Assembly: GCF_004319545.1 (NCBI RefSeq)
Contig: NZ_CP036313.1
Span: forward strand, 4,404,501 to 4,468,500
Direction: 5' to 3'
Source: Desulfobacter hydrogenophilus
GTDB taxonomy: Bacteria; Desulfobacterota; Desulfobacteria; Desulfobacterales; Desulfobacteraceae
Length of the DNA stretch: 64,000 bases
A program made the position numbers and the translations under genes. Below the pieces are notes generated by a model, which had not been told where the DNA came from, made no database searches, and worked only from the letters and a program-made list of their open reading frames with translations. Shown here in pieces: positions 12,072 to 16,896 of this stretch. The first letter of the stretch is position 1; every line of letters begins with the position of its first letter.

Positions 12072-13100
12072 ATGGAACTTCAATCAATATGGTTTTTTCT
12101 ATGGGGACTTCTTTGGGCGATATTTTTCCTGACAGACGGATTTGATTTCGGCATCGGCATCCTCTATCCGTTTGCCGGAAAAACAGACCGGGACAAACGA
12201 GTCATGCTCAATGCCAAAGGACCTTTATGGGACGGCAATGAAGTGTGGCTGGTCACGGCCGGCGGCGTTACCTTTGCAGCCTTCCCTAAAGTCTACGCCA
12301 CCATGTTTTCATCCCTTTATACCCCGTTGATGCTCATTTTATTTGCATTGATATTCAGGGGCGTAGCCATGCACTTCAGAGGTAAAATTGAAAGCCCTGG
12401 CTGGAAAAAAACATGGGATACCCTGATTTTTCTGGGCTCTTTTCTGCCGGCCCTCTTGTTCGGGGTGGCTTTTGCCAATATTTTCGCAGGCATTCCCTTT
12501 GATAACCAGGGACTGTACCACGGTAACACCTTAAAGCTGCTTACCCCTTATGGCCTTTTAGGCGGCATATTGTTTGTTCTGATGTTTATGCTTCATGGGG
12601 CAAACTGGATGACCATCAAGGCCACAGGGGAACTGCAGGATCGCTTTGCCCGAATTGCTGCCAAAACATGGATGGTACTTGTGCCTGTGGCCGTGGTTTT
12701 TCTGATTGCCTCCTATTTTGCCACCAGTCTTTATGACAACTACATCAAGTCACCAGCCCTGTTCTTAGTTATTGTCATTGCTGTAGCGGCACTGTTATGT
12801 GCACGGTACTTCAACGCAAAGCAAGCATGGTTCAAAGCCTGGTTTGCATCGGCCCTGACGATCATGGGATGCATTTTTTTCGGTATCTGTGGCCTGTTTC
12901 CAGCCTTATTCCCCTCGAGTATGGACCCGGCCTGGGACCTGACTGCATTTAATGCATCATCAAGCCCCCTAACCCTTAAAATCATGCTGGGCGTTGTTTC
13001 AATTTCTATTCCCATTGTTATTGCATACCAGTCCTGGTCTTATAATTTGTTCAAGGATCCTATTTCCGACGAAGACCTGGACATGGACGAAGCTTATTAA
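12072..13100 (+). CDS. cydB: Cytochrome bd-type quinol oxidase subunit II
   Basis: The 342-residue multi-spanning protein has the CydB hallmarks FLTDGFDFGIGILYPF at the N-terminus and GPLWDGNEVWLVTAGGVTFA, followed by regularly spaced hydrophobic helices. CydB is the second core subunit of the bd oxidase and is needed for haem d assembly. It follows cydA by 14 nt with an AAGGAG ribosome binding site. The first rubredoxin gene starts 76 nt downstream with no terminator between, so cydAB and the rubredoxin may be cotranscribed. Confidence 0.95.
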   Translation: MELQSIWFFLWGLLWAIFFLTDGFDFGIGILYPFAGKTDRDKRVMLNAKGPLWDGNEVWLVTAGGVTFAAFPKVYATMFSSLYTPLMLILFALIFRGVAMHFRGKIESPGWKKTWDTLIFLGSFLPALLFGVAFANIFAGIPFDNQGLYHGNTLKLLTPYGLLGGILFVLMFMLHGANWMTIKATGELQDRFARIAAKTWMVLVPVAVVFLIASYFATSLYDNYIKSPALFLVIVIAVAALLCARYFNAKQAWFKAWFASALTIMGCIFFGICGLFPALFPSSMDPAWDLTAFNASSSPLTLKIMLGVVSISIPIVIAYQSWSYNLFKDPISDEDLDMDEAY

Positions 13101-13176
13101 GTATAATCAACTTGCAGGTTTAATATTGGATTAGGCCTGTGCTTATAAACCAACAAAAGTAAATAAGGAGAAAAAT

Positions 13177-13335
13177 ATGGACAAATATGTATGCGGCCCC
13201 TGTGGTTATGTGTATGACCCGGCAGAAGGTGATGCTGACGGCGGTATTGATCCCGGCACTGCCTTTAAAGATCTGCCCGAAGACTGGGTCTGCCCTGTAT
13301 GCGGCGCAGCCAAAGACGAATTTGAAAAAGAATAA
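13177..13335 (+). CDS. rub: Rubredoxin, canonical copy
   Basis: A 52-residue rubredoxin, too short for many gene callers: both knuckles are intact, C6-G-P-C9-G-Y near the N-terminus and C39-P-V-C42-G near the C-terminus, binding one Fe in a Cys4 site. The [18 protein letters not shown] stretch is the usual rubredoxin core. The start is supported by AAATAAGGAG 9 nt upstream. Rubredoxins pass electrons to oxygen- or superoxide-reducing proteins; here the gene follows cydAB, and desulfoferrodoxin is 3 kb away. It is the first of two tandem copies. Confidence 0.95.
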
Positions 13336-13399
13336 TAATGACCTGCCCCGGGCCTGTTCCAGTTCGTAGCCAAGTCCGGGAATAGCGTAAAACATTCGA

Positions 13400-13434
13400 C
13401 GCCGGTTGCCATTTATTGGTAACCGGCGTTTTTT
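13400..13434 (+). terminator. Factor-independent terminator after rubredoxin copy 1
   Basis: CGCCGGTTGCC (13400-13410) pairs with GGTAACCGGCG (13418-13428), an 11-bp stem with one G-T wobble and a 7-nt loop, followed directly by six T residues. It ends the cydAB-rubredoxin transcript 16 nt before the second rubredoxin gene, which would then depend on read-through. Confidence 0.85.
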
Positions 13435-13450
13435 CCTAAAGGAACAAAAT

Positions 13451-13672
13451 ATGGATAAATATGAATGCGGCCCCAATGGCTACGTGTATGACGATGCCCC
13501 AGGATGTGATGGAAGCCCGGGAGCATCCCGGCCCTGTGATTATGTGTATGACCCGGCACAAGGCGATCCCCACAACGGCATTGATCCCGGCACTGCCTTT
13601 GAAGACCTTCCCGAAGACTGGATCTGTCCTGTATGCGGCGAACCCAAAAGCGAATTTAAAAAAGAAGCGTAA
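13451..13672 (+). CDS. Rearranged rubredoxin with duplicated N-terminal knuckle
   Basis: A 73-residue rubredoxin relative; the start at 13451 ([10 protein letters not shown]) has AAAGGAAC upstream and aligns with the start of the canonical copy. The C-terminal knuckle C59-P-V-C62 and the [18 protein letters not shown] core are normal. The N-terminal knuckle region is present twice: first as C6-G-P-N9-G-Y, then as S26-R-P-C29-D-Y. The first repeat has lost its second Cys and the second repeat has lost its first, so a Cys4 site could only be formed by C6 with C29 plus the C-terminal pair; C19 is extra. It may have an altered metal site or be decaying. Codons and downstream sequence show it arose by tandem duplication of the preceding gene. 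Confidence 0.85.
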
Positions 13673-13722
13673 CACACTGCCCCGGACCTGTTTCGGATCA
13701 TAGGCAAGTCCTGGAATCGTGT

Positions 13723-13773
13723 AAAACATTTAATGCCGGTTGTACGTTATTGCCAACCGACATTAAATGTTTT
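13723..13773. terminator. Long hairpin terminator between rubredoxin copy 2 and convergent DHH gene
   Basis: The arm from 13723 to 13742 (AAAACATTTAATGCCGGTTG) pairs with 13754-13773 in 19 of 20 positions, with one C-A mismatch and an 11-nt loop. The arms are A-rich on the left and T-rich on the right, so it can work in both directions. It separates the rubredoxin gene from the DHH phosphoesterase gene, which ends at 13792 on the other strand. It descends from the same sequence as the 13400 terminator. Confidence 0.75.
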
Positions 13774-13791
13774 CCCTAAAGCCGATCCAGG

Positions 13792-14784
13792 CTATTCAAT
13801 TTTTTTCCCTGCGGTTTGGGTGATCCGTTCAACCACCCACTGGGTCAGCGCCTTTTGGTTTACCCGCTTGATCTCTTTGCGAATCAGGGAAATATCCAAT
13901 TCAGCCCTGGCCATGGTTTTATGTCCCCCGGCAGACCCGAATTTGGCAAATGCCTCTTGGGCAGTCTTCCCAGCACCTTTTCGCAGGCCATCGTTGCGCA
14001 GGATCACAATCAGCGTTTTATCCACTACCCCGGAGACCACGCTCCAGTTGACCCCGGCAATGGAGAGAAAAAAATCGGCAGCCACCACCAGCTCATCGGG
14101 TTTAGACATGGTTCCGGCATGATAAAAGGCCCGGTTATCCTGGACGATTCTGTGCCTTATTGCATTGCCCAGGAAATCCAAGTCAGATTCCGTCATATGG
14201 GCCCGTTCCACCTTCGTGACGATATTCATATTCGCATATTTGTATAAAAACTGAAAAGCCCTAATATCTTTGGACGATGCCTGACGAGTAAAATCGGCCG
14301 TATCCGTTTTTATCCCCAGCATCAGAGCCGAAGCCAGTTTAGCCGACGGCTTTATCTTCAGGCTGCGCAGATATTCGGTGAACATGGTTGAACAGGCCCC
14401 GTAATCCGGTCGTATATCCACAAAAGCACCATCACTGCAGGATATTGGATGGTGATCAATGATGGCGTTATATTCAATACCGGAAAAATTTTCATTATGG
14501 TTGGGCTGGGAATCCACCACCACAAATTTGTCAAACAACGATCTGTCCACATTAGCCATGGGGACGATTCCGGCTTCAGTATACTCAATCATGGCCAAAT
14601 TGTCCGGCCGGGTGATCCGATTAAAATAGGTAATCACAACCTCACTGACCCGCCGCCACAAAATACGCTTCACAGCCATGGCAGACGCAATGGCATCAGG
14701 GTCTGCATTGATGACTACAAGCACCTTGGATGTCCCTGAAAAATGTGACAAAAACAGTTTAATTCTTTCTCGGTTACTGATCAT
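13792..14784 (-). CDS. DHH-family phosphoesterase (NrnA-like)
   Basis: A 330-residue protein with the DHH domain motifs: VVINADPDAIASAMAVKRIL (motif I, with Asp metal ligands), VVVDSQP (motif II) and the signature IDHHP (motif III). The C-terminal DHHA1 domain has the substrate-binding GSAGGHKTMARAEL. Members hydrolyse short oligoribonucleotides, pAp or cyclic dinucleotide breakdown products. The exact substrate cannot be read from sequence. Its start overlaps the stop of the upstream membrane-protein gene by 11 nt, suggesting coupled translation. It converges on the rubredoxin genes. Confidence 0.88.
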   Translation of the reverse strand: MISNRERIKLFLSHFSGTSKVLVVINADPDAIASAMAVKRILWRRVSEVVITYFNRITRPDNLAMIEYTEAGIVPMANVDRSLFDKFVVVDSQPNHNENFSGIEYNAIIDHHPISCSDGAFVDIRPDYGACSTMFTEYLRSLKIKPSAKLASALMLGIKTDTADFTRQASSKDIRAFQFLYKYANMNIVTKVERAHMTESDLDFLGNAIRHRIVQDNRAFYHAGTMSKPDELVVAADFFLSIAGVNWSVVSGVVDKTLIVILRNDGLRKGAGKTAQEAFAKFGSAGGHKTMARAELDISLIRKEIKRVNQKALTQWVVERITQTAGKKIE

Positions 14785-16446: not shown

Positions 16447-16827
16447 TTAAGATTTCCACAGTCCGTGGAGATTGCAGTAGGCCATGGCCTCAACCTTGTC
16501 CTCGTCACATTTAAAAACCGCTTCGGGTGCCGCATCTGGGGCCATCATCATACGCTGAACATATGCACCGTTACAGGATACAAGTTCAATCCATTCTATC
16601 CAATGCTCTTTTGTCATGGGATGAGCAACGCTGCCCACAGACACTTTGTATCCACCTTCTATTTTTTCTACTACGGGGACATGCTTTTCTTTAGCGGCAT
16701 CAATCGTATTAGCCACCAGGCGATCCATGGGCTTTCCGCAGCAGGTTGCCGGCGGTTGTTCTCCATGAAGAACCTGAATAATGTTGCCGCATTTTTGACA
16801 CTTATAAATTCCCATTTTTTCAGCCAT
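16447..16827 (-). CDS. dfx: Desulfoferrodoxin (class II superoxide reductase)
   Basis: Reduces superoxide to H2O2 in the cytoplasm without making O2. The 126-residue protein has both iron centres. Center I (desulforedoxin-like) is C10-x2-C13 with the adjacent pair C29-C30. Center II ligands are H49, H69, H75, C118 and H121 (EKHVP, VAHPM, EHW, CNLHG), with the catalytic-loop Lys at 48. The start at ATG 16827 is preferred over an upstream GTG because AGGAG lies 8 nt upstream. A terminator follows at 16325-16368, so it is probably monocistronic. The neighbouring rubredoxins are its likely electron donors (known for the family). Confidence 0.97.
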   Translation of the reverse strand: MAEKMGIYKCQKCGNIIQVLHGEQPPATCCGKPMDRLVANTIDAAKEKHVPVVEKIEGGYKVSVGSVAHPMTKEHWIEWIELVSCNGAYVQRMMMAPDAAPEAVFKCDEDKVEAMAYCNLHGLWKS

Positions 16828-16896
16828 TGATAACACTCCTTTTGTTTTAAAAGTTTATTAAATGCTGTCTGTGAGAGTCAGTTTTTGACCCTGCCA

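Follow-up and report, generated by a model that had tools for sequence, protein, structure and literature searches.

Rubredoxin is the textbook minimal metal site, with two fixed knuckles, and its classical form (PF00301) is the closest described relative of the gene considered here, which we call rd2. The gene lies in a 64,000-nt window of the Desulfobacter hydrogenophilus genome (contig NZ_CP036313.1), the whole stretch of DNA that was analyzed, and all positions are those of the window. The protein resembles classical rubredoxins in residues 28-70, where the best PDB matches are 1rdv and 1rb9, the alignment to residues 8-50 of 1rdv is free of gaps, and the second knuckle (CPxCG) is present as CPVCG in all 14 orthologues. 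In contrast, it differs from them by a split first knuckle, with 22 residues between candidate ligands 1 and 2, and by a conserved insert and a fifth invariant cysteine. In particular, the contiguous first knuckle CxxC(G) is absent from rd2, and C6GPN9 and S26RPC29 are found instead. Rubredoxins of the CX4C type, exemplified by rubredoxin-2 of Desulfovibrio desulfuricans 27774, likewise have extra residues within the first knuckle, between its two ligands; however, they have two extra residues where rd2 has twenty, and they have neither a knuckle duplication nor an additional conserved cysteine. Among the papers listed by the literature searches, no title or start of abstract concerns a split-knuckle rubredoxin, which is weak evidence of absence.

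A second comparison was considered. The CDGSH iron-sulfur domain of mitoNEET has the motif CxC...PxCDGSH, and the PGCDGSP of rd2 (PGCDGS at 13499-13516) resembles its PxCDGSH portion. However, the His ligand is replaced by Pro in rd2, which contains no CxC and no His anywhere in its sequence. The Pfam CDGSH profile did not match rd2 (E up to 1), its first 35 residues or the 20-residue piece from G10 to C29 (E up to 10 for both), and kinship with this domain, for which there is no Pfam support, was rejected.

The locus contains two tandem rubredoxin genes behind cydAB (Table 1). The first, rd1, is intact and ends 115 nt upstream of the second, rd2, whose 73-codon reading frame begins with an ATG preceded by AAAGGA. 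The PF00301 match of rd1 spans the full profile, while that of rd2 (cut-off 23) covers profile positions 7-47 of 47; the NCBIfam rubredoxin equivalog NF045768 (RubredRD) scores rd2 at 88.8 bits, just below its cut-off of 90. An initial annotation, made from the window alone, had the boundaries of rd2 and its residues C6, N9, C19, S26, C29, C59 and C62 right, and made no mention of the tandem partner rd1.

Table 1. Features of the cydAB-rubredoxin locus in the window.
Feature	Position	Strand	Evidence or remark
cydA (presumed), cytochrome bd oxidase subunit I, 436 aa	10747..12057	+	ORF; same position 5' of rd1 in relatives
cydB (presumed), cytochrome bd oxidase subunit II, 342 aa	12072..13100	+	ORF; same position 5' of rd1 in relatives
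Promoter-like site before rd1, TGGACA-18-TATAAT, 11/12	13078..13107	+	Consensus scan
rd1, ordinary rubredoxin, 52 aa, CGPCG...CPVCG	13177..13335	+	PF00301 83.5 bits; NCBIfam RubredRD 97.5 bits, cut-off 90
Intrinsic-terminator-like hairpin between rd1 and rd2	13398..13430	+	Scan: 1 found vs mean 1.4 in shuffles
rd2, split-knuckle rubredoxin, 73 aa	13451..13672	+	ORF; PF00301 78.3 bits, residues 29-69 only; orthologues
Knuckle copy 1, codons 6-14, CGPNGYVYD	13466..13492	+	C6 kept, second Cys replaced by N9
Insert string CDGSPG, C19-G24	13505..13522	+	Identical in 14/14 orthologues
Knuckle copy 2, codons 26-34, SRPCDYVYD	13526..13552	+	First Cys replaced by S26, C29 kept
C-terminal knuckle CPVC, C59-C62	13625..13636	+	C59 and C62 invariant in 14/14
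Inverted repeat after rd2	13723..13773	+	20-nt arms, 95% complementary; overlaps second copy of 240-nt repeat

The initial annotation had described a knuckle segment CGPxGYVYD that occurs twice in rd2; the repeat is real, also at the DNA level, but the string that both copies share is xxPxxYVYD, as copy 2 reads SRPCDYVYD. A 240-nt stretch that takes in most of rd1 and the DNA downstream of it recurs over rd2 (13525-13764, 80% identity), and a 54-nt stretch at the start of rd1 recurs at 13439-13492 (85% identity). Both repeats contain the rd1 knuckle, so that its stretch at 13191-13218 is matched twice within rd2. The sequence comparison indicates that rd2 originated by a tandem gene duplication and an internal 60-nt expansion. 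Over the first 30 nt of the knuckle unit, counted from codon 6, copy 1 is identical to rd1 at 23 positions and copy 2 at 26, and the two copies are identical to each other at 19. For insert codons 15-26, DNA similarity is not significant either with the rd1 loop (332 of 2000 shuffles were as good) or with the rd2 core (1181 of 2000), and an origin of all 60 nt from the rd1 loop is thus unsupported beyond the knuckle.

Further, one genome (G010) has an rd1-rd2 interval of 297 nt, against 111-124 nt in nine others (each length counts the start codon). By eye, the rd1 leader recurs in this interval, together with a segment resembling the end of the gene downstream of rd2, which we take to be DHH-type, and the extra sequence is likely a remnant of the original duplication. 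In a tree of the 129-nt cores of 14 rd2 genes and 19 other rubredoxin genes, the rd2 genes fall nearly together; the rd1 of G018 is placed among them, weakly supported, and 24% of bootstrap trees have a branch that separates rd2 from the rest. A single origin with one apparent absence is the reading adopted here, though it is not proven.

The distribution of rd2 was determined using a profile of its N-terminal 35 columns. An intact rd2 is found in 14 of 19 Desulfobacter genomes, the present one included; among the matches listed for the other 67 of the 86 family genomes, none is full-length and the partial ones end by position 18. At E 1e-8, with the best 20 or 19 candidates per genome scored, rd2 is found in 14 of 389 genomes of an order sample, all from Desulfobacter, and in 1 of 395 of a phylum sample, which is the present genome; the two samples may overlap. 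The five Desulfobacter genomes without rd2 gave no full-length match when searched again at E 1, and one of them (G003) is 56% complete. The initial annotation held that absence of the gene from close relatives would speak against its reading; the gene is missing only from four genomes outside the rd2 clade and this incomplete one. As 14 genomes agree, an assembly or frameshift artefact is ruled out. To judge from these sequences, rd2 is a real rubredoxin variant under selection, restricted to the genus as far as searched.

In a cydA tree of 18 genomes, a clade supported at 100/100 unites the 13 rd2-bearing genomes with the incomplete G003; the tree is rooted on the four complete genomes without rd2, a root chosen by us, and leaves out G001, which has no cydA match. 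Because of G003, the presence of rd2 requires two changes on this tree rather than one. In 10 of the 14 genomes, rd2 is flanked by rd1 and the DHH-type gene, and 9 of these 10 have cydAB 5' of rd1; in the other four (G002, G004, G012 and G018), it lies away from the cydAB-rd1 locus. Moreover, in G001, which is 99% complete and carries rd1-rd2, a genome-wide search at E 1e-20 found no cydA, and the 3 kb before rd1 gave no match to cydB. Because of G001 and the four relocated copies, the tie of rd2 to cydAB is not strict. The stretches fetched from outgroup genomes G005, G007, G008 and G009 contain cydAB and rd1 without rd2.

Among at least 80 related loci, 68 gave an ordinary rubredoxin ORF, and the rest were duplicates or were not resolved (L047 and L072 included); the only split rubredoxin noticed there was L006, from a Desulfobacter postgatei MAG, whose protein is identical to that of G004. 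Several rubredoxins of these genomes and loci have a C-P-C first knuckle, a CXC one residue short of CxxC: the rd1 of G001 (L144 3072-3224) and of G015 (L153 7691-7843), L008, L022, L032 and L108, and the second rubredoxins of G007, G008 and G009. The present genome contains a weaker rubredoxin match of 46.5 bits with two internal stops, possibly a remnant (G000:C1:3081092-3081223, L005). In G018 (L156 7895-9913), an upstream permease, presumably of SulP type, and the split rubredoxin share one open frame of 672 residues, in which AAGGAG is still present before the rubredoxin Met; in G012, the split rubredoxin lies just upstream of an 84% identical relative of this permease. A tblastn search with the whole of rd2 matched 125 plasmid records; among the best 20 of the 125, 16 begin at residue 27-29 and four at residue 10, and the one of these four that was inspected (H1) is an ordinary rubredoxin. 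Six plasmid records have matches covering at least 80% of rd2, four of them among the best 20 of the 125. A phage search with the N-terminal 35 residues found no match at E 1.

Five cysteines (C6, C19, C29, C59 and C62) are invariant in the 14 rd2 proteins, as are C6-G7-P8 and the residues D20, G21, S22, P23 and G24, whose codons vary while the residues do not. The codon is always TGC for C6 and always TGT for C19, and these two positions therefore show no silent change. At position 9, where the second cysteine of copy 1 would stand, Asn is found in 12 proteins, Ser in one and Gly in one. Position 26 is Ser in 8 proteins, Cys in 4 and Gly in 2 (codons TCC 6, TGC 4, TCT 1, AGC 1, GGT 1 and GGC 1). 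A single step separates TGC from each of TCC, AGC and GGC, but TCC and AGC differ from one another by two, so that Cys26 would be ancestral and would have been lost more than once. The initial annotation had inferred a reciprocal loss of cysteines between the two copies; the second Cys of copy 1 is indeed gone in all 14 proteins, but four of them retain the first Cys of copy 2, and simple reciprocal complementation as a conserved design is rejected on this ground. It had also listed C19 as an additional cysteine; the residue is present, but its invariance makes it part of the design. Across these sequences, the conserved features of rd2 are C6, C19 and C29 rather than reciprocal loss.

Selection was quantified as pN/pS using pairwise, uncorrected proportions across the 14 rd2 genes. 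The overall value is 0.220; codons 2-6 give 0.510, codons 7-28 give 0.156, codons 7-24 give 0.080 and codons 29-71 give 0.249. The difference between codons 7-24 and 29-71 has a one-sided permutation p of 0.018, with bootstrap intervals of 0.02-0.17 for the former and 0.04-0.30 for the difference; the boundary 7-24 was picked after the alignment was seen, and the low 0.08 depends on where it is placed. Counts of invariant residues do not differ between insert (12/18) and core (23/43; p 0.40). In the same 10 species, pN/pS is 0.099 for rd1 and 0.184 for rd2, with an rd1 set that omits the outgroup, the two genes whose knuckle is CXC and the three genomes from which no rd1 was extracted. On these ratios, selection maintains rd2, though under weaker constraint than rd1, and the greater part of its insert is not a loose loop. 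The claim of the initial annotation that selection rather than decay shaped the gene holds on this evidence and on its intact presence across the genus; rd2 is probably a working variant, not a decaying gene.

Two AlphaFold2 models of rd2 were calculated, one from an alignment whose ordinary rubredoxins were cut to start at the second knuckle cysteine, which was meant to leave the N-terminus unsteered (model 1), and one with whole rubredoxins (model 2). Their mean pLDDT is 81.6 and 82.8, and their pTM 0.64 and 0.69, respectively. By 10-residue block from residue 1, the mean pLDDT is 83, 60, 66, 91, 91, 91, 89 and 82 in model 1, and 85, 58, 66, 94, 94, 93, 90 and 85 in model 2. Both models thus place residues 1-10 and the core with good confidence (residues 31-70 have a mean pLDDT of 89-94) and residues 11-30 poorly. 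The predicted strands are 4-5, 11-13, 26-28, 32-33 and 70-71 in model 1, and 4-5, 11-12, 27-28, 32-33 and 70-71 in model 2; with the pairing read from the strand string, the layout would be strand 1, C6, an inserted hairpin, C29 and strand 2. In a MAFFT alignment of rd2 and L006 with 31 ordinary rubredoxins, C6 falls on ligand 1 and C29 on ligand 2, a column match that is a matter of gap placement and not proof. When the N-terminal 35-column profile was compared to PDB chains, no match was better than E 0.29 and none extended over more than 18 positions.

The reading we favor, as somewhat the likelier outcome, is that rd2 is a functional rubredoxin paralogue with a putative Fe(C6,C29,C59,C62) site of the form CX22C...CX2C, in which C19 is an additional conserved thiol. 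What the sequences show is the gene itself, its conservation, distribution and selection, and the duplicated knuckle; the models predict, with confidence, an N-terminal strand beside an ordinary rubredoxin core and leave the insert uncertain. We infer the ligand set, that the metal is iron and not zinc, a redox partner and a separate role for C19, as a thiol or in partner contact. Because position 26 is Ser, Cys or Gly while five cysteines are invariant, a ligand there cannot be essential, and a site of four cysteines must draw on another one. Further, ligand spacing is already variable in this organism, because its genome contains two CX4C rubredoxins (L003 and L004) beside the CX2C and CX22C types. 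According to the proposed mechanism, the rubredoxin gene behind cydAB would have been duplicated in tandem, with an in-frame 60-nt expansion that duplicated the first metal knuckle. Copy 1 would supply the first strand and the first ligand (KYEC6), copy 2 would supply the second ligand and all that follows from C29 onwards, and the 22 residues between them would loop out as the insert. One iron held by the four cysteines would then act as a one-electron shuttle, as in ordinary rubredoxins, most likely in the setting of oxygen or superoxide defence. The idea of a metal site joining the two half-knuckles, advanced in the initial annotation, is plausible, though the evidence for it differs from the reason given. 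Several observations weigh against the favored reading: C19 is equally invariant and could be the ligand; C6 need not be one in the four species with a complete C26-x-x-C29; pN/pS is high in the codons just before and including C6 (2-6); invariant-residue counts do not set the insert apart from the core; rd2 is under weaker constraint than rd1; and its NCBIfam score stays just below the cut-off.

In the best of the alternatives, iron sits on C26, C29, C59 and C62 (with Ser, water or nothing at the first position in proteins that have Ser or Gly there), while C6 pairs with C19 on the N-terminal hairpin as a disulfide or thiol switch distinct from the iron site. Both C6 and C19 are kept even where C26-x-x-C29 is complete, which suits a job of their own, and copy 2 keeps its x-x-P-C spacing in 13 of the 14 proteins (G012 has S for P). 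However, the site would be without its fourth cysteine in 10 of 14 species, with Gly in two of them, the PGA before position 26 is unlike strand 1 (KYEC), and residues 1-10 are well placed in both models; we regard such an arrangement as unlikely.

Somewhat less likely again is a site of C19, C29, C59 and C62 (CX9C...CX2C), in which C19 replaces the lost ligand and C6 is spare. The invariant C19 is closer to C29 along the chain, and rd1 has nothing equivalent to it, but C6 is invariant as well and comes after the strand that also precedes ligand 1 in the 31 aligned rubredoxins, and C19 is located in the block with the lowest mean pLDDT of both models. At a marginally lower likelihood, rd2 could be an oxygen-tuned rubredoxin, where C6 is an iron ligand in the reduced state and a C6-C19 disulfide, formed under oxygen, opens or retunes the site; if so, an electron carrier would have become a thiol-redox switch through the doubling of half a knuckle, in most species beside cytochrome bd.

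It is improbable that rd2 has a zinc or structural site, or is a docking variant that uses the insert as a recognition hairpin, with redox activity secondary. Codons 7-24 are more constrained than the core, and the invariant C6-G7-P8, together with Y11, Y13 and CDGSPG, would suit a partner surface; however, residues 28-70 are ordinary rubredoxin sequence and the best PDB matches are chains named rubredoxin. Last, a decaying duplicate that binds no metal, which the broken canonical CxxC knuckle, the position behind a terminator-like hairpin and the weaker constraint compared to rd1 would fit, is very unlikely given the open frame in all 14 genomes, the overall pN/pS and the five invariant cysteines.

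The surroundings of rd2 bear on its expression and role. A consensus promoter scan of 13000-13900 found 2 sites, compared to a mean of 1.6 in shuffles. The hairpin between rd1 and rd2 ends 20 nt 5' of the rd2 start, and the inverted repeat downstream of rd1 has a counterpart in 9 other aligned genomes, with a T-run that varies; its retention suggests that rd2 may be expressed by read-through or under other conditions. The inverted repeat after rd2, where the terminator scan made no call, is probably the duplicated counterpart of the rd1 hairpin. From their sequences, we take the two reading frames upstream of rd1 to be cydA and cydB, and the ORF at 16447-16836 to be desulfoferrodoxin-like. Because of the cytochrome bd genes upstream and this nearby ORF, the gene neighborhood suggests a role of rd2 in oxygen or superoxide defence. 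For sulfate reducers, PMC11451228 describes superoxide reductase or desulfoferrodoxin, rubredoxin as its electron carrier, and the oxygen reductase CydAB.

Overall, a natural lineage in which a knuckle has been duplicated and dismantled under selection would show the rebuilding of a metal site in evolution. Moreover, the Ser, Cys and Gly found at position 26 of related species are ready variants for probing which cysteines carry the iron.
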